From contig DAIDCO010000011.1 of assembly GCA_027309555.1 (NCBI GenBank), positions 1 through 46,052 of the forward strand: a stretch of DNA of 46,052 nt, written 5' to 3'. A program made the position numbers and the translations under genes. Source of the DNA: a bacterium (GTDB lineage: Archaea; Thermoplasmatota; Thermoplasmata; Lutacidiplasmatales; UBA184). This document shows positions 35,810-45,989 of this stretch, in pieces. The first letter of the stretch is position 1; every line of letters begins with the position of its first letter. The notes beneath the pieces are model-generated. The model had not been told where the DNA came from, ran no database searches, and was given only the letters and a program-made list of their open reading frames with translations.

Positions 35810-38800
35810 ATGGGGGGTCGGATCCGATCGACCGGCCTGGGATGGGCGGTCGGGGCGCTCGCGGTCGTCGTGCTCCTCGCCACCACCGCGGTCCCGGTCC
35901 TCGCCTCCTCGCCCTCCGCCGCGAGCGCCGGAGGACCGACCATCGCCGTCGTACCGCCCCCGGGAGCTTCCGGCGGCCGCCTCTCCGCGCCCACCGCACC
36001 CCTCGAGGTGGCCCCGGCCTTTGTCCCGGCCCCCGGGACCGCGGAAGAGGGACCGCTCGCTTCGGGCCTCCCGCTCTCGGTGCTCGTCGGCCTCGCTCCG
36101 AGCGATCCCTCCGGCTTCGCGGCGACCGTGGCGAGCGAGTACGTGCCGGGTTCGTCGCAGTACCATGTCTATCTGAGCCCGGCGGAGATCGCCGCACGCT
36201 TCGCCCCCTCTCCGGGCACCGTGCGTGCGGCCGAATCCTACTTCGCGGGCTTCGGTCTCAACGCGACGACCTCGCCGAGCGGATTCCTCCTAGAGGTGCG
36301 AGGTCCCAGCGCCGGCGTCGGCCGGGCCTTTGGGACCACGTTCGAGCGGTACATCGACCCGTCCGGCCGTCAGTTCGTCAGCCACTCGACCGCGGCCACG
36401 CTTCCGGCGGGGATCCCCTGGACGGGAGCCTATGGGCTCGGAAACGCAACGCCGTTCCGGCCGGCCACCTCGCTCGAGGGGCGCGCCCCGGTGACCCTCA
36501 TCGGCCCCACGGTCGCGTGCGCCCCAGCCTCGTTCGGCCTCAGCCCGTGCGACGTACAGCGCGCCTACTCGCTCGACCCGCTGCTCGCGAACGGAACGAA
36601 CGGGTCCGGCGTGAGGATCGGGGTCGTCGACGCCTACGACTCCGCTGAGCCCGCGACCTCGCTCTACCTCGACTTCCGCAGTTTCACGACCGACTTTGGA
36701 TTGCCCTCGAGTGGCCTTTCGTTCGCGTATCCCGTACGCACGACCGCGAACCTCAACCGGACGAACGCGAACGTCGCCTGGGGCGTCGAGGAGGCCCTCG
36801 ACATCGAGTGGGCGAAGGCGATGGCTCCGGGCGCCTCCGTGGAGATCGCCTTCTCGCCCGATGCCGGTCCGGGCCTGGTGACCGCGATCGACTGGCTGGT
36901 CGCGAGCGCCTCCGTGAACGTGATCTCGCTGAGCTGGGGCGAGCCGTTCAGCGGGGTCTTCAACGCCTTCTCCCAGCCCTGCTTCACGGCGTGCAACGCG
37001 TCGACGGACGGAACGTATACCCTTCTCAACCCGATCTTCGAAGCGGCCGCCGCCGAGGGGATCGGCGTGTTTTCGGCGACCGGCGATTGCGGAGCGGCGG
37101 ACGGCACCTCGGGCCTCGCGGTGAACTACCCGGCGACCGACCCGTTCGTCACGGCGATCGGTGGCACGCTCCTCAAGGTCACATCGACCGGCAGTTACCT
37201 CACGGAGAGCGGGTGGAACGGCAGCTCCCCCGGCTCGGTCCGCCCCGGCTGCGGGAACCAGGGGGGGTCGGGCGGTGGGTACTCCCCCCTTCCGCGTCCG
37301 TCCTGGCAGGCGGGGCTCCCCGAGCCGTTCCTCGGCCGGGCCACGCCCGACGTCTCCGCCGACGCCGCGACCCCCGCGCTCATCGTCTACGAGGGCGCGA
37401 CCACGGCCGTCGGCGGCACCAGCCTCAGCACTCCGGTGTGGGCCGGGATCGCCGCGGTCGCCGATCAGTACGCGCGCGCACCGCTCGGCGACTTGAACCC
37501 CGGCCTCTATCGCGTGTACGACAGCCGGAACTACTCGACCGATTTCCACGACATCCTCGTCGGGAACAATGGCTACTCGGCCGGCCCGCGGTGGGACCCG
37601 GTGACGGGGATCGGCACCCCGGTGATCTCCTCGCTCGTCCGCGACCTCACGGGCACGCCGGTGCTGCTCTCGCACGGTCCCGGCGTCCTGCTCTTCGCCT
37701 CGCCGCGATACGGACGAGCCCCCCTGACGGTCTCCTTCGCGATGGACCTCACCGGCAGCCACCCCATCGCCGGCGTCAACTTCGGGGACGGGAACTCCTC
37801 ACTCGACGGCGCCCCGTTCGCCCACACCTACACGGCGCCGGGGGTCTACTCGGCCCAGGGGTTCGCCGCCGATGCGGAAGGCAACGGCTCGGTCTCGCCG
37901 CCGATCGCCATCGTGGTCGGGGGAGGCACGGCGCTCGCGGTGCGACTGACGGCCTCGAGCCTCGCGGTCCCCGTCGGCGGTTCCGTGACGTTCGGCGTCA
38001 GCGCCACGGGCGGGCGGGGCCCCTACCTCTACAACTATAGCTTCGGGGACGGAACCTACCTCACCAATCAAACCGGCCTCAGCGTCGTCCACGTCTTCCG
38101 CTCCGCGGGCGCCTTTTGCAGCGAGGTCGTCGCCCGGGACTCCGCCAACCCGATCGACGGCGGGGTGAGCGCACGTCTCGGGCTCACCGCCGGAGGAGGC
38201 GCGCCCGCCGCGTGCGGGAACGACCTCACGCCGCTCACGCTCACGCGAAACTCCGGCCCCGAGGTTCGGGATGCCCCCGCAGAGTTTCCCACGTTGTTCG
38301 CGAGCGCCGGAGGGATATCGCCCCCCGTGGGCCTCGCGAACTCTGTCCAGTACCTCGCGACCGACCCGTACGTTCGGGCCTGCCAGTGCGCCATCTTCCC
38401 CACCCCAGGGAACTACTCGGTCCTCGCGTGGGAGAACGACACAGTGAGCCAGGGGGGGTTCGCGACGACGAACGTCACGGTGGCCCCGTCGCTGCAGGCC
38501 ACGTTCGACGCGTCGACCCTGAGCGGGACCGCCCCCCTCTCCGTCGACTTTTCCTCTACGGTCGCGGGGGGCTACCGAGCGGCCGCGGCGGCGACGCGGT
38601 GGCAGTTCGGCGACGGGACGCAGGCCGTGGGCGCGGCGGTCACGGCCACGTACACCCTTCCCGGCGAGTACCTCGCTATCGGTGCGGTCTCCGACGGGGG
38701 GTTCGGGAACTCGAGCGAGGCGTTCCTGATCGACGTGCAGGCCCCGGGCCCGGTCCGGAGCTACGGGGTGACCGGGACGATCGCGCCGGCCGTCGACCTC

Positions 38801-39709
38801 GCCTCGGGAGCCACCGTGCGCTACCAGGGCGACATCCTCGCTCCCGCAGGGAGCGGGCCGGCGACTTTCGCCTGGAACCTCGGTGAGGGGTTCGCCGCCG
38901 ACACCCCGGAGGCGAACCAGACGTACTACGCGCCCCTCCCCGGTTTCGACCTCGACTCTCTCACGATCGCCGCCTCCGTGCTCCTCCCGGGAGGCGTGGC
39001 GGCCTTTCAGACGAACTTCACGCTTCCGTCGTTCTTCGCGGTCGAGGCTGGAGGCTTTGTTCCCCGGGTCGCGGCCCTGACGCTCGCGACCGAGGTCGGG
39101 CCCGAAGAGGGACCGTCGCCGCTCCTCGTGCACGGCAACGCGCTCGCCACCGGTTCGGCACTCTCGGGGACGGTCGACTGGGCATTCGGGGACGGCGCCC
39201 GCGCGTCCGGAAACGTGGTCAACCACTCGTATCCCCTCCTCGGCGTGTTCACGCTCACGGTCAGCACCGGGGACACGTTCGGCCATTCGGCCGTCGACTC
39301 CTACGGCCTCGAGGTGAACCCGGGGCTCTCGGTGGCGGGCGGGCCCTCGACGTCCCAGGGCATCGCCCCCCTGACGGTGACCTTTTCGGCGACCGCTCAA
39401 GGCGGTTACGGGGCTCCGTACTCGTACCGGTGGACGTTCCTCGCCCCGCAGGGCTCGGTCCCGGAGGGCTACGGGACCACGGTCGATCGGACGTTCGACA
39501 AGGGCGGCGTCTTCGCCGCAACCGTGAACGTCACGGACCGCGCGGGCGTGACCGTCGAGCGCACCTGGCTCGTGACGGTCCATGCGGGCCTCCTGACGGC
39601 CTCGGACGTGCTCGAGATCGCCGGCGCCGCGGGAGTGGGGGTCGGGCTCCTCACCTACTTCGTCGCCCTGTGGCGGTCGGAGCCCGACCCGGGCGCCCTC
39701 AGCCCTTGA
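35810..39709 (+). CDS. Secreted S53 (sedolisin-type) peptidase with multiple PKD domains and C-terminal anchor
   Basis: A 1299-residue extracellular protease. A signal segment (about 12-32) and pro-domain (about 80-225, 'QYHVYLSPAEIAARFAPSPGTV') precede the catalytic domain (about 240-635). The triad is E327 and D331 ('WGVEEALDIEWA') and S538 ('VGGTSLSTPVWAG'); the oxyanion Asp is D426 ('FSATGDCGAA'). At least four, probably five or more, PKD/Ig-like modules follow, marked by 'VNFGDGNSS', 'YSFGDGTYL', 'WQFGDGTQA' and 'WAFGDGARA', ending with a related module ('YSYRWTFLAP'). One membrane helix near the end ('AAGVGVGLLTYFVALW') anchors it. PKD modules often help enzymes bind polymers or surfaces. 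Its stop overlaps the end of rtcB by 11 bp. Confidence 0.93.
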   Translation: MGGRIRSTGLGWAVGALAVVVLLATTAVPVLASSPSAASAGGPTIAVVPPPGASGGRLSAPTAPLEVAPAFVPAPGTAEEGPLASGLPLSVLVGLAPSDPSGFAATVASEYVPGSSQYHVYLSPAEIAARFAPSPGTVRAAESYFAGFGLNATTSPSGFLLEVRGPSAGVGRAFGTTFERYIDPSGRQFVSHSTAATLPAGIPWTGAYGLGNATPFRPATSLEGRAPVTLIGPTVACAPASFGLSPCDVQRAYSLDPLLANGTNGSGVRIGVVDAYDSAEPATSLYLDFRSFTTDFGLPSSGLSFAYPVRTTANLNRTNANVAWGVEEALDIEWAKAMAPGASVEIAFSPDAGPGLVTAIDWLVASASVNVISLSWGEPFSGVFNAFSQPCFTACNASTDGTYTLLNPIFEAAAAEGIGVFSATGDCGAADGTSGLAVNYPATDPFVTAIGGTLLKVTSTGSYLTESGWNGSSPGSVRPGCGNQGGSGGGYSPLPRPSWQAGLPEPFLGRATPDVSADAATPALIVYEGATTAVGGTSLSTPVWAGIAAVADQYARAPLGDLNPGLYRVYDSRNYSTDFHDILVGNNGYSAGPRWDPVTGIGTPVISSLVRDLTGTPVLLSHGPGVLLFASPRYGRAPLTVSFAMDLTGSHPIAGVNFGDGNSSLDGAPFAHTYTAPGVYSAQGFAADAEGNGSVSPPIAIVVGGGTALAVRLTASSLAVPVGGSVTFGVSATGGRGPYLYNYSFGDGTYLTNQTGLSVVHVFRSAGAFCSEVVARDSANPIDGGVSARLGLTAGGGAPAACGNDLTPLTLTRNSGPEVRDAPAEFPTLFASAGGISPPVGLANSVQYLATDPYVRACQCAIFPTPGNYSVLAWENDTVSQGGFATTNVTVAPSLQATFDASTLSGTAPLSVDFSSTVAGGYRAAAAATRWQFGDGTQAVGAAVTATYTLPGEYLAIGAVSDGGFGNSSEAFLIDVQAPGPVRSYGVTGTIAPAVDLASGATVRYQGDILAPAGSGPATFAWNLGEGFAADTPEANQTYYAPLPGFDLDSLTIAASVLLPGGVAAFQTNFTLPSFFAVEAGGFVPRVAALTLATEVGPEEGPSPLLVHGNALATGSALSGTVDWAFGDGARASGNVVNHSYPLLGVFTLTVSTGDTFGHSAVDSYGLEVNPGLSVAGGPSTSQGIAPLTVTFSATAQGGYGAPYSYRWTFLAPQGSVPEGYGTTVDRTFDKGGVFAATVNVTDRAGVTVERTWLVTVHAGLLTASDVLEIAGAAGVGVGLLTYFVALWRSEPDPGALSP

Positions 39710-41150
39710 CGACCCCGAGGGGACGGAGGCGCGCGACCCGTCGGGTGAGGCCGGCGCCCTCGGCGACCCGCACGACCTCCTCCACATCCTTGTAGGCCCC
39801 CGGCGCTTCCTCCGTGACGCCTTCGCGGGACGTGGAGCGGACGACGATCCCGCGCCGCGAGAGTTCCCGCGTGACGTCCTCGTACCGGAAGCTGCGGACC
39901 GCGGCGTGCCGGCTGAGCCGGCGACCGGCGCCGTGACAGGAGGAGCCGAAGGAGCGTTCCATGGAGGTCGGGAGGCCGAGCAGGACGTAGCTCGCGGTGC
40001 CCATGTCGCCGGGGATGAGGACGGGCTGGCCATGGTCGCGGTACGGAGCGGAGACCTCCTCGCGGCCGGCCGGGAACGAGCGGGTCGCGCCCTTGCGATG
40101 GACCAGGAGCCGGCGCGACACGCCGTCGACCCGGTGCTCCTCGACCTTCGCCATGTTGTGCGCGATGTCGTACACGACGGCGAGGTCGAGTGCTTCGGCC
40201 GGCCGCTCGAAGACCGCGGAGAAGGCGCGGCGGATCCCGTGCGTGATCGTCTGGCGGTTCGCCCAGGCGAAGTTGGCGGCGGCGGCCATCGCGGCGAGGT
40301 ACCGCTGTCCGTCCTCCGAGGCGATGGGGGCGCACGAGAGCTGGCGATCCACCAACGTGACGTGCTCCTCGAGGAGCCGCCGGTCCATTCGCTGGATGTA
40401 ATCCGTCGCGACCTGATGGCCAAGTCCGCGCGAGCCCGTATGCAGCATGACCACGACGCGGCCCGGCACGAGACCGAGCACTCGGGCGAACTCCTCGTGG
40501 AAGATCTCGTCGACCGCCTGGACTTCGAGGAAATGGTTCCCCGAACCGAGGGTGCCGAGCTGCTTCAGGCCCCGCTTGCGGGCCGACTCCGAGACCTGGC
40601 GCGGGTCCGCGGAGGAGAGACATCCTGCCTCTTCCTGCACCGTGAGGTCCTCGACCCGGCCGAGACCGTGATCGATCGCCCAGCCCGCCCCGTGGGCGAG
40701 GACCTCGTCCATCTCCGCCGGCGTAAGGGGGTACCCTCCGCGGCTCCCGACCCCCGCCGGCACCTCGCGGTACAGCCGATCGATGAGCGGAAGGAGCCGG
40801 GGTCGGACCTCCTCCACGGTCAGCGACGTGCGGACGAGCCGCACGCCGCAGTTGATGTCGTAGCCGATCCCGCCCGGCGAGACGACCCCCTCGTCGAGGT
40901 CGAACGCCGCGACCCCCCCGACCGGGAAGCCATAGCCGAAGTGGATGTCGGGCATCGCGAGGGCGTTCTTCTGGATGCCGGGAAGGGTCGCGACGTTCGC
41001 GAGCTGGAGCAGCGAGGGGTCCCCTTCGACGCCGCCGAGCAGCGCCGCGTCGGAAAAGAGGACTCCCGGGACGCGCATCCCCTCGACTTCGTCGAGCGGG
41101 ATCTCGTAAGTGAACTCGTCGCGGGCGACGAGTCGCGGCACTTTCGGCAC
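39699..41150 (-). CDS. rtcB: RNA-splicing ligase RtcB
   Basis: A GTP- and Mn-dependent ligase joining 2',3'-cyclic phosphate and 5'-OH RNA ends, as in tRNA splicing. Key motifs are 'MPDIHFGYGFPVGGVAAFD', 'GIGYDINCGVRL' (metal Cys), 'GTLGSGNHFLEVQ', 'MLHTGSRGLGHQ', 'VYDIAHNMAKVEEH', 'VLIPGDMGTASYV' and 'SCHGAGRRLSR' (the guanylylated His). The GTG at 41150 is chosen because a TATA box (41171-41180) lies 25 bp upstream, giving a leaderless mRNA and a 483-residue protein of normal length. The frame is open to 41288 but that extension is unlikely. It is the expected partner for the intron-containing tRNA-Leu in this window. Confidence 0.95.
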   Translation of the reverse strand: MPKVPRLVARDEFTYEIPLDEVEGMRVPGVLFSDAALLGGVEGDPSLLQLANVATLPGIQKNALAMPDIHFGYGFPVGGVAAFDLDEGVVSPGGIGYDINCGVRLVRTSLTVEEVRPRLLPLIDRLYREVPAGVGSRGGYPLTPAEMDEVLAHGAGWAIDHGLGRVEDLTVQEEAGCLSSADPRQVSESARKRGLKQLGTLGSGNHFLEVQAVDEIFHEEFARVLGLVPGRVVVMLHTGSRGLGHQVATDYIQRMDRRLLEEHVTLVDRQLSCAPIASEDGQRYLAAMAAAANFAWANRQTITHGIRRAFSAVFERPAEALDLAVVYDIAHNMAKVEEHRVDGVSRRLLVHRKGATRSFPAGREEVSAPYRDHGQPVLIPGDMGTASYVLLGLPTSMERSFGSSCHGAGRRLSRHAAVRSFRYEDVTRELSRRGIVVRSTSREGVTEEAPGAYKDVEEVVRVAEGAGLTRRVARLRPLGVVKG

Positions 41151-41170
41151 GAGGCCGCGCCAGCCGTGTG

Positions 41171-41180
41171 GCGTATTTGG
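41171..41180 (-). promoter_or_regulatory. TATA box of rtcB
   Basis: The minus strand reads CCAAATACGC, centred 25 bp before the GTG at 41150. This spacing supports a leaderless start and decides between several in-frame starts. Confidence 0.55.
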
Positions 41181-41216
41181 CTCCCTCGGCCACGAGCGGC
41201 GCTCGCGGGGGGACAG

Positions 41217-41225
41217 ACATAATCC
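41217..41225 (+). promoter_or_regulatory. TATA-like box of the zinc-ribbon membrane protein gene
   Basis: ACATAATCC lies about 40 bp before the ATG at 41263 and about 33 bp before a GTG at 41254. It is divergent from the rtcB promoter. Confidence 0.4.
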
Positions 41226-41262
41226 CAAGTAGCCGAGACGGAGTACACGCTCCGTGGCACCC

Positions 41263-41580
41263 ATGCGACTGCGGACCGCACTCTCCATCGCGAACCTCGT
41301 CGCGATCGGAGTGGCGTTCCTGGTCCTGTTCGCGCTGCCCGAGTACTCGACCTACGCGTTCTACGCGCTCTTCGGGTGGATCTTCGTCGGGTTCGGGCTC
41401 ATGTACCTCCCCGGCGTCCGTCGACCGACCCTCAGTGCCCCCGATTCCCCCCGATCGGCTGCGCTGCCGTCCGGTACCGCCCCCCCGACAGCCCTCGACT
41501 TTTGTGTCTGGTGCGGAACGAGCCTCCCGCCGGGGAGCCCGGCCTGCCCTGCCTGCGGGCGGCGCGTAGCTCCGGTGTAG
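41263..41580 (+). CDS. Small membrane protein with C-terminal zinc ribbon
   Basis: No named family is recognised. From the ATG at 41263 it has 105 residues: two hydrophobic segments ('ALSIANLVAIGVAFLVLFAL' and 'YAFYALFGWIFVGFGLMYL') in the first 50, a Ser/Pro linker, and a C-terminal zinc ribbon with two CxxC pairs ('FCVWCGTSLPPGSPACPACG'). Such two-helix plus zinc-ribbon proteins are common and uncharacterised in archaea. A GTG at 41254 would add three residues. It has its own TATA-like box and no obvious operon partner, since the next gene downstream is on the other strand. Confidence 0.75.
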   Translation: MRLRTALSIANLVAIGVAFLVLFALPEYSTYAFYALFGWIFVGFGLMYLPGVRRPTLSAPDSPRSAALPSGTAPPTALDFCVWCGTSLPPGSPACPACGRRVAPV

Positions 41581-41641: not shown

Positions 41642-42199
41642 TCAGGAGGGCGGCACTACGAACAGCATCGGTTCCCGGGCCCGGGCGTTCGTCCCGGCGG
41701 CGACCCGCAGGTCTCGCACCGTCCCCGCCGCAGGGCTCGCGATCTCGTTGCGCATCTTCATCGCCTCGAGGACGAGGAGGACCTGGCCCTTCTCGACCGC
41801 CTCCCCGTCGCGGACGCGGACCTCGATCACCCGGCCGGGGAGCGGGGGAACCACGGCGAGCCCCCCCTCGGGTCCCGGAGTCCCGCCCGCGGCGGGCGGA
41901 GCGCCCGAGGGGGCCCCGGTCCCGGACCGCGGAGCGCGTCCGGCCGCCGGCCCGGTCCCGGCCCGCGCGCGAATGAGGATCCGCTCGCCGTCCACGTCGA
42001 CCGGGCCGGGGGGCTCGGGAGAGCGCGGGGGCCAGTGCTCCACCACTACCCGCTGGCCGGCGATCTCGAGCTCCACGCGCTCGGCCGTGTCGGCGACGAC
42101 CCGCACGGGATACTCGCGGCCCTCGAGCGTCGCCGTGGAGAGGTCGGGAGCGACCTCCACGACCTCCCGTTTACCGTCCCGCTCGAGCGTGATGCGCAT
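41642..42199 (-). CDS. Biotin carboxyl carrier protein (biotinyl domain subunit)
   Basis: It carries biotin between carboxyltransferase sites. Residues 115-185 form the biotinyl domain with 'LLVLEAMKMRNEI', where K148 in EAMKM is the biotinylated lysine. The N-terminal 60 residues form a small beta-rich domain ('REYPVRVVADTAERVELEI'). The middle is a flexible Pro/Gly/Ala linker (about 58-112). It overlaps the end of the pyruvate-type carboxyltransferase gene by 29 bp and is last in the operon. It corresponds to the 1.3S subunit of transcarboxylase or the gamma/BCCP subunit of biotin decarboxylases and carboxylases. Confidence 0.93.
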   Translation of the reverse strand: MRITLERDGKREVVEVAPDLSTATLEGREYPVRVVADTAERVELEIAGQRVVVEHWPPRSPEPPGPVDVDGERILIRARAGTGPAAGRAPRSGTGAPSGAPPAAGGTPGPEGGLAVVPPLPGRVIEVRVRDGEAVEKGQVLLVLEAMKMRNEIASPAAGTVRDLRVAAGTNARAREPMLFVVPPS

Positions 42200-43688
42200 C
42201 GATCCACCTCCGGCGCGATCCGAGGCTGGCGCGACCCGCCTCCGCCCACGCCCCCCCTCGGGGCACGGTGGAGGCGAGCGGCCGCGTCGGTCGGGGAGCG
42301 CGGAGGGCCCCGACCACCCCCAGCGCCACCGTGGTGAGAACGTCGGGGGTCAGGCCCCGGTCGACCGACTCCCGATACGATCGGAAGACCGCCGGGAAGA
42401 GCGCGTAGGAGAGCGCTTCGGCCTCGTCCGCCCCGGGCACGAAGCCGCGGACCTCCGCGAGCATCTTCTCGAACTCGGGCGCGAGCAGGTCGGCCGGACG
42501 ACCGACGATGGCCGGCGACTCCTGTGTCACTCGGCGGAGGAGCGCGGGGTCGATCGGGCCGGGTGCGGCTCCGTAGAGGCCCCGTACATAGTCCCGTACC
42601 TCCCGGGTGATCTCGCGGTAGCGGCTTCCGACGAGGACGTTGATGACCGCCTGCACGCCTACGATCTGGCTGGTCGGGGTCACGAGCGGGGGGAACCCGA
42701 GGTCGGCCCGCACGCGCGGCACCTCCTGGACGACCTCCGTGAGCCGGCCGAGCGCCTCCTGCTCGCGGAGCTGAGAAAGAAGGTTCGAAAGCATCCCGCC
42801 CGGGATCTGGTGCGTCAGGATCCCGGGGTCGGTCTGCAGGCTCCTTAAGTCGAGGAGCGGACGGTAGCGGTCGAGGACGGTGCGGAAATGCTCGGAGAGC
42901 TCGGCGAGCGCGGCAAGGTCGAGCTTCGGGTCGGCCGCACTGCCCCGCAGCGCGCCGACCATCGCCTCGGTCGGCGGCTGGCTCGCGCCCCCCGCGAACG
43001 GGCTCAGCGCGGTGTCGATCGCGGCGGCGCCGGCGTCGACGACGGCCAGACAGGTCATCGCCGACATCCCGCTCGAGGAGTGGGTGTGGACGACCACGGG
43101 GAGCCCCACGTTGCGGACGAGCGCGCGGACGAGCTCGGCGCCTTCGTGCGGAGGGAGGAACCCGCCCATGTCCTTGACGCACAGTTCGTCGGCCCCCATT
43201 TCGGCGAGCGTGCGGCCGAGGGCCACGAACGCCTCGAGCGTGTGCACGGGGGAGGACGTGTAGCAGATCGTGGCTTGGGCACGGGCCCCCGCCCGCTTCA
43301 CCGCGTCGAGCGCGACCGCCATGTTCCGGGGGTCGTTGAGCGCGTCGAAGACCCGGAACACGTCGATGCCCTGCCGCGCCGACTCCGCGACGAAAGGGCG
43401 TACGACGTCGTCCGGGTAGTGTCGGTACCCGACGAGGTTCTGTCCGCGCAGCAGCATCTGCAACGGCGTGCGCGGCATCGCCTTCTTGAGCTGGCGCAGG
43501 CGCTCCCACGGGTCCTCGTGCAAGTATCGTAGGCAGACGTCGAACGTCGCTCCGCCCCAGACCTCGAGCGACCGGTAGCCGATCGCGTCGAGCCGCTCGG
43601 CCGCCGGCAGCATGTCCCGCGTGCGCATGCGGGTGGCGATCAGCGACTGGTGGCCGTCGCGCAGGACCGTTTCGGTGATGCCGACCAT
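42171..43688 (-). CDS. Pyruvate/oxaloacetate-type carboxyltransferase subunit (5S / OadA / PycB catalytic domain)
   Basis: A metal-dependent barrel enzyme moving a carboxyl group between biotin and pyruvate/oxaloacetate. 'ITETVLRDGHQSLIATRMRTRDML' supplies the metal Asp (D11) and substrate Arg. 'ELCVKDMGG' has the Lys that is carbamylated in relatives (K172), and 'VVVHTHSSSGM' the metal His pair (H201, H203). The C-terminal conserved PYC/OADA region follows (about 290-470; 'THQIPGGMLSNLLSQLREQ', 'GFPPLVTPTSQIVGVQAV'). The protein (505 residues) ends without a biotin domain, which is a separate gene. It lies 11 bp after the PccB/MmdA-type gene, so one operon encodes two carboxyltransferases. 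Confidence 0.93.
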   Translation of the reverse strand: MVGITETVLRDGHQSLIATRMRTRDMLPAAERLDAIGYRSLEVWGGATFDVCLRYLHEDPWERLRQLKKAMPRTPLQMLLRGQNLVGYRHYPDDVVRPFVAESARQGIDVFRVFDALNDPRNMAVALDAVKRAGARAQATICYTSSPVHTLEAFVALGRTLAEMGADELCVKDMGGFLPPHEGAELVRALVRNVGLPVVVHTHSSSGMSAMTCLAVVDAGAAAIDTALSPFAGGASQPPTEAMVGALRGSAADPKLDLAALAELSEHFRTVLDRYRPLLDLRSLQTDPGILTHQIPGGMLSNLLSQLREQEALGRLTEVVQEVPRVRADLGFPPLVTPTSQIVGVQAVINVLVGSRYREITREVRDYVRGLYGAAPGPIDPALLRRVTQESPAIVGRPADLLAPEFEKMLAEVRGFVPGADEAEALSYALFPAVFRSYRESVDRGLTPDVLTTVALGVVGALRAPRPTRPLASTVPRGGAWAEAGRASLGSRRRWIDAHHARAGR

Positions 43689-43698
43689 CGTACCCCGG

Positions 43699-45249
43699 TC
43701 AGAGCGGAACGTTCCCGTGCTTGCGCGCCGGACGGTCGTCCCGCTTCGAGGCGAGCATCCGGAGCCCCGCGACCAGGCGGGCCCGAGTGTCGGCCGGGTC
43801 GATCACGTCGTCAATGTACCCCCGCTCCGCGGCGAGGTACGGGTTCAGGAACTCTCGACGATACTCGGCCGTGAGCTTCTGCCGCAGCGCGTCGCGCTCG
43901 GCCTCCCCGGCCGCATCGAGCTCGCGACGCGAGAGGATGTTCACCGCCCCTTCCGCCCCCATCACGGCGATCTCGGCGGTGGGCCAGGCCAGGTTCATGT
44001 CGCCGCCCAGGTGCTTAGAGCACATCACGACGTACGCGCCGCCGTAGGCCTTGCGCAGGATCACCGTCAGCATCGGCACGGTCGCATCGGCGTACGCGTA
44101 GAGCAGCTTCGCTCCGTGGCGGATGATCCCCCCGTGCTCCTGGGCGGTCCCCGGAAGGAACCCCGGCACGTCCACGAACGTAAGGAGGGGCAGGTGGAAA
44201 GCGTCACAGAACCGCACGAAGCGCGCGGCCTTGGTCGACGCGTTGATGTCGAGCGTTCCGGCGAGCACGGAGGGGTTGTTCGCCACGACGCCCACCGGGC
44301 GGCCGTCGAGCCGAGCGAATCCGACCACGACATTCGCGGCCCACTCCGCCTGGACCTCGAGGAACGACTCGAGGTCGAGGACGCGCTCGAGGATCGCGTG
44401 GACGTCGTACGGCGCGTTCGCCTCCTCGGGGACGATCGTCTCGAGCTCCTTCGCGGCGGCGTCGGCCGGCGCCGCGGCCGCCGCGAGGGGCGGTTCCTCG
44501 AGGTTGTTGAGGGGCAGGTAGGAGAGGAGGTGACGGGAAAGCTCGATCGCGTCGCGGTCGGTCTCGGCGGTGAAATGCGAAACGCCGGTCAGCTCCGCGT
44601 GCGCGCGGGCCCCGCCGAGCGCCTCCATCGTCACCTCTTCGCTGGTCACGGCGCGGACCACGTCCGGGCCCGTGATGAACATCTGACCCGTCCCCCGCGT
44701 CATGATGACGAAGTCGGTCAGCGCCGGCGAGTAGACCGCCCCGCCCGCGCACGGCCCGAGGACGAGCGACACCTGGGGCACGACGCCCGAGAGGAGGACG
44801 TTCTGGTAGAACACGTCGCCGTAGCCGCCGAGGCTCAGGACCCCTTCTTGGATGCGCGCTCCTCCCGAATCGTTGAACCCGACGATCGGGACCCCCGCTT
44901 TGCGGGCGGTCTCCATGACCTGAACGATCTTCATCGCATGCGCCTCGCCGAGCGCTCCGCCGAAAACGGTCGCATCCTGGGCGAACGCGCAGACCGGTCG
45001 GCCGTCGACCTCGCCCCAGCCGGTCACGACGCCGTCGCCGGGGACCCGCCGCTCCTCGCGGCCGAAGGTGTCGACGCGGTGCGTCACGAACGCGCCGAGC
45101 TCGGTGAACGTTCCGGGGTCGAAGAACGCCTCGAGCCGTTCGTGCGCGCTCAGCTTGCCTGCGGCCCGGTGCCGCTCGGTCCGCTCGGCACCCCCGCCCT
45201 CGCGGGCCCTCTTCCTCAGGACCGCCCACCGGTCGAACGCCTCGCTCAT
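43699..45249 (-). CDS. Acyl-CoA carboxyltransferase subunit (PccB / MmdA / transcarboxylase 12S type)
   Basis: It transfers carboxyl groups between biotin and propionyl-CoA/methylmalonyl-CoA. The crotonase-fold halves are clear: N-terminal 'GKLSAHERLEAFFDPGTFTELG', 'FAQDATVFGGALGEAHAMKI', 'GFNDSGGARIQEGVLSLGGYG', 'GPCAGGAVYSPALTDF', and C-terminal 'NASTKAARFVRFCDAF', 'VDVPGFLPGTAQEHGGIIRHGAKLLYAY', 'RKAYGGAYVVMCSKHLGGD'. From the ATG at 45249 it has 516 residues, the standard size. A GGAGG sequence precedes the ATG, and ATGA overlaps the BirA stop. The larger open frame to 45972 is a shadow of birA. Methylmalonyl-CoA decarboxylase alpha, propionyl-CoA carboxylase beta and transcarboxylase 12S cannot be told apart by sequence alone. 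Confidence 0.94.
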   Translation of the reverse strand: MSEAFDRWAVLRKRAREGGGAERTERHRAAGKLSAHERLEAFFDPGTFTELGAFVTHRVDTFGREERRVPGDGVVTGWGEVDGRPVCAFAQDATVFGGALGEAHAMKIVQVMETARKAGVPIVGFNDSGGARIQEGVLSLGGYGDVFYQNVLLSGVVPQVSLVLGPCAGGAVYSPALTDFVIMTRGTGQMFITGPDVVRAVTSEEVTMEALGGARAHAELTGVSHFTAETDRDAIELSRHLLSYLPLNNLEEPPLAAAAAPADAAAKELETIVPEEANAPYDVHAILERVLDLESFLEVQAEWAANVVVGFARLDGRPVGVVANNPSVLAGTLDINASTKAARFVRFCDAFHLPLLTFVDVPGFLPGTAQEHGGIIRHGAKLLYAYADATVPMLTVILRKAYGGAYVVMCSKHLGGDMNLAWPTAEIAVMGAEGAVNILSRRELDAAGEAERDALRQKLTAEYRREFLNPYLAAERGYIDDVIDPADTRARLVAGLRMLASKRDDRPARKHGNVPL

Positions 45250-45989
45250 GGGGCCTCCTCCACGCGAAGGTCGCCGGCTCTTATTGCCATCCGCTCCCCC
45301 CGGTCCTCGACCCAGAGCTCCCCTTCGTCCCCCAGCGCGACGATCGTCCCGACGGGACGCTCGTCGACGCGGGCCGGCCGACCGACGCCGAACAGCACGG
45401 CGCGGCACCGCGCCCGAAGCACCGGCAGTTGAGCGGGGTCGCGAACCGCGCGGCCCGCCTCGAGCACGGCGTCGACCACGAGGGGTTCCACCGCGTCGGG
45501 GGAGGGCGGAGGATGGACGGAACGGGACAGCACCGCGACCCGATCCCGGATCTCCGCGGGGAGCCGGCCGATATCGGTCACCACGTTGACCCCCACACCT
45601 ACCACGGCCGCCGAGCCGAGTCGGGGGGAAGCGACCCGGTCCACGAGGATCCCGGCCAGCTTCCGGCTCGGTCGGCCACCGTCCACCAGCAGGAGGTCGT
45701 TCGGCCACTTCACGCGGAGGGGGAGCGCGAACTGTCGCCCGAGCGACTCCGCTAGGACCGTGCCTACCGCGAGCGGCAGGAGGCCCGCATGGCTCTCGGG
45801 CGCGGCGAGGATCATCGAGAGATAGAGCCCCCCGTCGGGCGACTCCCACGTGTGGTCGAGGCGGCCGCGGCCGTGCCGCTGCCGGCGCGCGACGACCCGG
45901 GTACCCTCCCCCGCTCCCGCGCGCGCGAGGGCGATCGCTCGGTCCTGCGTGGAGGGGAGTTCCTCGTACCACTCTCGAGTCTCGTGCAA
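45246..45989 (-). CDS. birA: Biotin--protein ligase (BirA), catalytic type without DNA-binding domain
   Basis: It attaches biotin to the carrier encoded two genes later. Motifs are 'LPSTQDRAIALARAG', the biotinyl-AMP loop 'RRQRHGRGRLDHTW' with 'SPDGGLYLSM', 'LPLRVKWPNDLLL' and 'RKLAGILVD', then 'VVGVGVNV'. The C-terminal small domain ends 'GELWVEDRGERMAIRAGDL'. There is no N-terminal helix-turn-helix, so it is not a repressor. The start is a TTG at 45989, preceded by GGGGAG at 45995-46000; no in-frame ATG or GTG is available nearby. It opens the biotin operon. Confidence 0.94.
   Translation of the reverse strand: MHETREWYEELPSTQDRAIALARAGAGEGTRVVARRQRHGRGRLDHTWESPDGGLYLSMILAAPESHAGLLPLAVGTVLAESLGRQFALPLRVKWPNDLLLVDGGRPSRKLAGILVDRVASPRLGSAAVVGVGVNVVTDIGRLPAEIRDRVAVLSRSVHPPPSPDAVEPLVVDAVLEAGRAVRDPAQLPVLRARCRAVLFGVGRPARVDERPVGTIVALGDEGELWVEDRGERMAIRAGDLRVEEAP

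Follow-up and report, generated by a model that had tools for sequence, protein, structure and literature searches.

Can an archaeon transfer a carboxyl group between oxaloacetate and propionyl-CoA on biotin without spending ATP? This question is raised by a four-gene operon at one end of the archaeal contig DAIDCO010000011.1 (46,052 nucleotides; hereafter the window), which is one contig of a 2.04-Mb draft assembly (GCA_027309555.1; 114 contigs, 90.3% complete). The operon encodes, in order, a BirA-type biotin-protein ligase, an acyl-CoA carboxyltransferase (CT) resembling the 12S subunit of the transcarboxylase of Propionibacterium freudenreichii, a pyruvate/oxaloacetate-type carboxyltransferase resembling its 5S subunit, and a separate biotin carboxyl carrier. 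From the gene content and its distribution among relatives, we estimate a probability of about 0.8 that the four genes specify a soluble biotin transcarboxylase working without ATP.

The operon occupies positions 45989 to 41642, and all its features lie on the minus strand. The four tightly packed genes described there by a first-pass annotation of this DNA were all found, each matching its Pfam family far above chance. The birA gene begins with TTG (45246-45989; PF03099, E = 5e-16; TIGR00121, 111 bits against a cut-off of 83) and overlaps by 4 bases the gene for the full-length CT, which is of the PccB/MmdA type (516 aa; ATG at 45249 to the stop at 43699; PF01039, 6e-197). After a gap of 10 bases follows the gene for the 5S-like protein (505 aa; 42171-43688; PF02436 (PYC_OADA), 3.5e-48; PF00682 (HMGL-like), 2.8e-15), whose domain content includes no biotinyl domain of its own. 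It overlaps by 29 bases the carrier gene (185 aa; 41642-42199; PF00364, 1.7e-15). The carrier contains an EAMKM motif, in which K148 (41756-41758), the expected biotinylation lysine, is invariant among the 19 carriers aligned. The order BirA-CT-5S-carrier is retained in all 17 5S-bearing relatives whose neighbourhoods were read.

Enzymes assembled from similar parts are told apart by one further component. A propionyl-CoA carboxylase has a biotin carboxylase (BC) subunit or domain, a two-subunit pyruvate carboxylase has the BC subunit PycA, and a sodium-pumping oxaloacetate or methylmalonyl-CoA decarboxylase has a membrane beta subunit of family PF03977 (OAD_beta; OadB/MmdB). The first-pass annotation had suggested searching the whole genome for AccC/PycA and OadB/MmdB. 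When this search was run on the whole draft assembly, no match to PF02785 (BC) and no match to PF03977 was found. The draft genome holds what is expected of a biotin transcarboxylase, namely a CT, a pyruvate-type carboxyltransferase and a carrier encoded together, with apparently intact active sites, and neither BC nor OadB/MmdB was found.

The same genes were then counted in 106 draft genomes of the window's order and in 389 genomes drawn from the phylum, own order included. Genomes at least 90% complete with at most 5% contamination were classed as near-complete; there are 39 of these in the order, 36 of them in the window's family, by which we mean the family of the window within the order. 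A 5S-like gene occurs in 90 of the 106 order genomes (E 1.1e-27 or better). The raw tally was 97; it included seven weak matches (G001, G002, G003, G069, G071, G094, G099, at E 3e-6 or worse), which were scored as lacking the gene because aldolase-like relatives are expected to give such 25-30% stretches. BC was found in three order genomes (G004, G043, G097), all among the 16 that have no 5S-like gene, and in none of the 90 5S-bearing drafts (hypergeometric p = 0.0029 in the order, 0.0016 within the family). Among the near-complete family genomes, 34 carry 5S and no BC and two carry BC and no 5S, and CT and methylmalonyl-CoA mutase are both present in all 36. In the three near-complete order genomes outside the family (G001-G003), none of 5S, BC, CT and mutase was found. 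OAD_beta was found in 0 of the 106 order genomes; the same model detects it in 23 of the 389 phylum genomes. A BC missed in the own genome or in the order was ruled out by these searches, whose control was positive in 13 of 14 control genomes, and the PF03977 counts rule out a beta subunit encoded elsewhere. The first-pass annotation had named a BC or OadB/MmdB gene conserved with the operon in relatives as the observation on which its reading would fall, and within the order neither gene is so conserved.

Across the order, CT was found in 94 and methylmalonyl-CoA mutase in 98 of the 106 genomes. Of the 87 genomes with both CT and 5S, 83 have them no more than 300 bases apart, three have 1.3-4.0 kb between them, and one (G096) has them on different contigs. 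Phylum-wide, PYC_OADA was found in 109, BC in 219 and OAD_beta in 23 genomes. Outside the order, a comparison of these lists by eye gave seven genomes with PYC_OADA and neither BC nor OAD_beta (G121, G144, G247, G321, G324, G428, G433). Two methylmalonyl-CoA mutase-like PF01642 matches (L183, 8193-9923, and a second) occur in the own genome and in many relatives; the second may be another acyl-CoA mutase. The one mutase gene that was read lies on a different contig from the operon, among neighbours unrelated to the pathway.

The genomes that carry BC also reveal what stands in place of the operon. In G043 and G004, the place that CT-5S-carrier has in relatives, between RtcB and BirA, is taken by an inverted CT-BC-carrier cassette; G097 is represented by a short contig in which only CT and BC are seen. 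The replacement occurs in members of two genera. These BC-type CTs share 54-55% identity with the window CT, and the 17 5S-type relatives read share 64-82%. The CT tree unites the 18 5S-type CTs of the family (100/100) and places the three BC-type CTs in a separate clade (100/99) that adjoins a Bathyarchaeota CT (98/98). Joining the BC-type CTs to the family's 5S-type CTs was rejected (p = 0.003), which is moderate evidence, as the groups were named after viewing the tree. A first CT tree, which carried a warning that two very long rows (L162, L163) meet, recovered the same groups with weaker support; the tree was rebuilt without L162, L163, L184, L187 and 3iav, with the partial L149 and L199 left out, and the main groups were unchanged. 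We regard this foreign, BC-bearing cassette at the operon site as strong evidence that both cassettes serve one function and that the native enzyme works without BC.

The active sites were compared with those of solved relatives. In the 5S-like protein, D11, K172, H201 and H203 (within 43080-43658) align with D23, K184, H215 and H217 of the propionibacterial 5S (1rqb), which we take to be its metal ligands, and are invariant in all 15 family members aligned. In the CT, V407 (44029-44031) occupies the position of PccB D422, presumably an acyl-CoA specificity residue. Asp is found there in 13 of the 18 family CTs and Val in five, including the window CT; the three BC-type CTs have Cys.

A Biotin_lipoyl search of 14 near-complete genomes, 12 of them 5S-type, found a single carrier with EAMKM, that of the operon, in 11 of these 12; the contig of G017 stops short of it. 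All 14 genomes have one other strong match, a lipoyl E2 (LTDKA). Beyond these, matches were weak (E 6e-6 to 3e-4), and the one that was read (L237, G009) resembles GcvH. The operon carrier therefore appears to be the only biotin carrier of the 5S-type genomes. In its AlphaFold2 model (mean pLDDT 74.8, pTM 0.46), a beta barrel at the N terminus (residues 2-54) is followed by a proline/alanine-rich linker of low confidence and a well-modelled biotinyl domain. Residues 23-172 align with PccA 517-671 (phmmer, 6e-8), and the top Foldseek matches of the whole model are PCC- and MCC-type alpha chains (BT-BCCP), at TM 0.37 and rmsd 15 A. The first 80 residues folded alone (mean pLDDT 67) gave no Foldseek match at E <= 0.001. 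Tentatively, the carrier may correspond to PccA minus its BC domain, and the barrel (residues 1-54; 42038-42199) may resemble the BT domain of the propionyl-CoA carboxylase alpha chain.

How would the enzyme work, and in which direction? BirA would biotinylate K148 of the carrier. The 5S-like subunit would take CO2 from oxaloacetate, giving pyruvate and carboxybiotin, and the CT would pass the carboxyl group from the carrier biotin to propionyl-CoA, giving methylmalonyl-CoA. Methylmalonyl-CoA mutase would convert this to succinyl-CoA, and the citric-acid cycle would return oxaloacetate. The enzyme would stand in for propionyl-CoA carboxylase, needing neither ATP nor bicarbonate. The first-pass annotation had read the BirA, 12S-like, 5S-like and 1.3S-like set as a candidate transcarboxylase that may act between methylmalonyl-CoA and pyruvate. 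Gene content and the absence of BC and OadB support the enzyme, and we refine the direction, which is most likely propionyl-CoA + oxaloacetate to methylmalonyl-CoA + pyruvate because of the aerobic profile of the likely host group, the BC cassette that replaces the operon, and the precedent of the propionyl-CoA:oxaloacetate transcarboxylase of Pelotomaculum, as described in part of PMC6046458.

As to the host, passages of PMC9287336 describe the Lutacidiplasmatales as aerobic, degrading amino acids and fatty acids, with about 69% G+C, genomes of about 2.1 Mb and secreted acid peptidases. The G+C content of the window (69.3%), the 2.04-Mb assembly and the peptidase gene beside RtcB are compatible with this description. 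The host belongs to the class Thermoplasmata and most likely to the Lutacidiplasmatales, hence it is probably an aerobic, acidophilic heterotroph, perhaps of acid soil. In the reconstruction given in those passages, one marker of the propionate-to-succinate pathway is the beta chain of propionyl-CoA carboxylase, and the words 'transcarboxylase', 'carboxyltransferase' and 'biotin' are absent from the main text of PMC9287336.

The transcarboxylase reaction is freely reversible, and the same enzyme could work mainly towards propionate, converting methylmalonyl-CoA and pyruvate to propionyl-CoA and oxaloacetate. A Hermodarchaeota locus (L123) shares the gene order, and Imachi et al. inferred an Asgard propionate fermentation with a transcarboxylase, according to the part of PMC7015854 consulted. 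We consider a mainly propionate-forming enzyme unlikely, as replacement of the operon by a BC-bearing cassette makes most sense for the consumption of propionyl-CoA.

A transcarboxylase could also serve other partners, for instance a different 2-oxo acid or the pair acetyl-CoA/malonyl-CoA. The CTs are a promiscuous family, and the Val found at the 422-equivalent position in five CTs, that of the window among them, would fit such a use. The Asp in the other 13, the co-occurrence of CT with methylmalonyl-CoA mutase and the conservation of the 5S metal-site residues with pyruvate enzymes all speak against it, and we give this possibility little weight.

In an ATP-driven alternative, a BC encoded elsewhere would share the carrier with the CT and the 5S-like protein, giving combined propionyl-CoA and pyruvate carboxylases. 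The first-pass annotation had kept a shared carrier with a distant BC as its own alternative. In the window's family this finds no support: no BC was found in any of the 34 near-complete 5S-bearing genomes, and BC occurs only where 5S was not found. It may apply in another Thermoplasmata family, f7, where eight of the ten 5S-bearing genomes have BC. Two of these, G386 and G268, carry a CT-5S-carrier operon and, at another place in the genome, a BC; the 16 kb around this BC contain no match to CT, 5S or carrier. In G139 (family f41), the one BC lies beside a CT-like gene of 37-38% identity. For the window operon itself, we judge an ATP-driven enzyme to be very improbable. The remaining alternative is a decarboxylase that acts on oxaloacetate or methylmalonyl-CoA via the carrier, with CO2 lost spontaneously or with the help of a beta subunit of unknown type. 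It draws on the fact that CT and 5S families also serve sodium-pumping decarboxylases (TIGR01117 and TIGR01108 matches, both below cut-offs), and is the least probable, since OAD_beta was found in none of the 106 order genomes and a decarboxylase needs one carboxyltransferase, not both.

Several observations count against an ATP-free transcarboxylase. The own assembly is split into many contigs, and two named records of the same order are metagenome-assembled genomes. At the position of PccB D422, the window CT itself carries Val instead of Asp, and CT and 5S lie 3.4-4.0 kb apart in G018 and G020. Three order genomes have 5S and no CT was found in them (G016, G050, G051), and in four CT-bearing family genomes neither 5S nor BC was found (G025, G069, G080, G099), most simply because their assemblies are incomplete. 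Against profile models, the 5S-like protein scores 672 bits for PycB, 642 for OadA and 507 for 5S. Finally, in f7 the eight 5S-bearing genomes with BC have it elsewhere in the genome, and two of the three operons read there (G386, G268) come from BC-bearing genomes; therefore, gene arrangement alone is no proof of an ATP-free enzyme. No BC was found in two further f7 genomes, G321 (98% complete) and G433. The f7 system (L173, L179, L204) may be mixed or transitional, and ATP-driven use there is possible.

We also asked how the archaeal proteins relate to the classic enzyme. Among solved relatives, the CT scores 670 bits against Streptomyces coelicolor PccB and 602 against transcarboxylase 12S; the 5S-like protein scores 503 against PycB, 476 against OadA and 446 against transcarboxylase 5S. 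In a 5S tree of 64 rows, built on the first 470 residues with the tail outside and the partial L177 left out, the 5S-like proteins of the family are monophyletic (100/100), and the propionibacterial 5S (1rqb) groups with OadA 2nx9 (98/95). A joint clade with 1rqb was rejected (approximately unbiased (AU) test, p = 0.03), and with it the reading of the 5S-like gene as an orthologue or sister of the propionibacterial 5S. A single origin of all CT-linked 5S-like genes was likewise rejected (AU p = 0.008), which is moderate evidence, as the groups were named after viewing the tree and deep branches are weak. By these comparisons, descent from the same lineage as the propionibacterial enzyme is not supported.

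Similar operons occur in other lineages. BirA-CT-5S-carrier was also read in f7 (G386, G268 and, in part, G321, cut by a contig end), in Bathyarchaeota (L097) and in Hermodarchaeota (L123). CT-5S-carrier or parts of it, with BirA undetected, were read in f41 (G139, G144) and in an Acidobacteria assembly (L149). BirA-CT-BC-carrier operons are found in f12 and f19 (L185, L186), and CT-BC-carrier in f43 (L206).

Nearly all CT-linked 5S-like proteins examined share a C-terminal feature. The window protein ends in a tail that begins at W481 (W-x-x-x-G-R; 42174-42248). Of 25 such proteins (18 of the window's family, two of f41, two of f7, L097, L123 and L149), 24 have the pattern W-x(2-4)-[AG]-R somewhere in their last 40 residues; only L149 deviates, with WKMPYR. 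None of the 37 other PycB/OadA proteins in the set has the pattern. The unlinked 37 include L126, L162 and L163, which have a CT-like gene near and belong to OadB-type or other loci. The tail is also absent from all 75 loci of a second set, in which 26 of the 37 are counted again. Since the rows are related, a Fisher value overstates the evidence, and lineages are the fairer unit: five of six carry the tail. The same tail ends three of 16 BC proteins (L185, L186, L206), all in CT-BC-carrier operons. It was not found on the BCs of G004, G043 and G097, nor on those of L184 and L187, both beside a 37% CT. Pfam assigned no family to five tails, with one chance match at E 0.14, and the consulted part of a paper on the epsilon subunit (PMC13118682) mentions no such motif. 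The pattern suggests that the tail perhaps docks the partner subunit onto CT or carrier, as a shared docking tag.

Archaeal propionyl-CoA carboxylases and transcarboxylases could, in a broader and tentative view to which we give somewhat less than even odds, be exchangeable builds of a CT and a BT-BCCP carrier with either BC or a PycB-type subunit, often attached via the shared tail. The window's family would have settled on the ATP-free build, and ATP-free transcarboxylases would have arisen several times by such swaps.

Of the closest known systems, the P. freudenreichii transcarboxylase has the same three kinds of subunit, a separate carrier, neither BC nor membrane subunit, and the same 5S metal-site positions. 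It differs in that the archaeal 5S-like protein groups elsewhere, the CT scores higher against PccB than against 12S, and the archaeal carrier has an N-terminal barrel. The Pot enzyme of Pelotomaculum thermopropionicum, likened by its description in part of PMC6046458, shares the proposed direction and the role in propionate oxidation. That organism is, however, a bacterial syntroph with genes clustered with much of the methylmalonyl-CoA pathway, whereas the archaeal mutase was read on another contig. The Asgard transcarboxylase (Imachi et al. 2020, PMC7015854, in the part consulted) is archaeal and has an associated biotin ligase and carrier, and L123 shows BirA-CT-5S-carrier; in contrast, its hosts are anaerobes for which propionate fermentation was proposed, and the L123 5S-like protein falls outside the clade of the window's family. 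Propionyl-CoA carboxylase (PccA/PccB) is similar in that the CT is PccB-like and the carrier can be aligned with PccA over its BT-BCCP part. In addition, BC replaces 5S beside the CT of three relatives, and the two of these that allowed a check have it at the same site. The carboxylase differs in that no BC domain or gene was found in the genome of the archaeal operon, where a PycB-type subunit takes the place of BC.

If our reading is correct, uncultured archaea, probably of acid soils, would oxidise propionyl-CoA from valine, isoleucine and odd-chain fats without the ATP cost of the carboxylase. If the genome belongs to the Lutacidiplasmatales, the published propionyl-CoA carboxylase step should be re-read as a transcarboxylase. 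The locus would also supply naturally occurring replacements at a single site, a docking tag open to testing, and an argument that a classic enzyme, best known from propionibacteria, originated repeatedly. In the literature covered, which excludes most subscription journals, no paper dealing with a transcarboxylase of Thermoplasmata turned up. In the parts consulted, PMC3199775 discusses biotin carboxylases and sets transcarboxylases aside, and PMC12220078 does not mention propionyl or methylmalonyl.

Other arrangements of the same parts were noted. A Clostridiales locus (L126) combines a PccB-like CT (57%), a carrier, OadB and an OadA-like protein, that is, a sodium-pump subunit with two carboxyltransferases. 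In family f24 (L168, L169; G121, G109), long PycB-like proteins of 657 and 681 aa have a biotinyl domain of their own; neither BC nor OadB was found in G121. Within the order, segments of 4.0 kb in G020 (L082, 5560-9578) and 3.4 kb in G018 (L083, 6075-9477) separate CT from 5S, with both genes kept. In L083, where the operon is split, the segment holds an opposite-strand open reading frame (ORF) of 1064 aa.

The window ends directly upstream of BirA; in relatives, ORFs resembling riboflavin genes lie there. Downstream, outside the enzyme, is an RtcB RNA ligase gene (39699-41288, minus strand; PF01139, 2e-172). Between RtcB and the carrier lies a small plus-strand ORF (41254-41580) with a C-terminal zinc ribbon and apparent hydrophobic segments, whose start overlaps RtcB. 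Beside RtcB ends a gene (35810-39709) for a probably secreted, pro-kumamolisin-type (S53-like) peptidase with PKD domains, a type of peptidase that a passage of PMC9287336 describes as typical of acidophiles.

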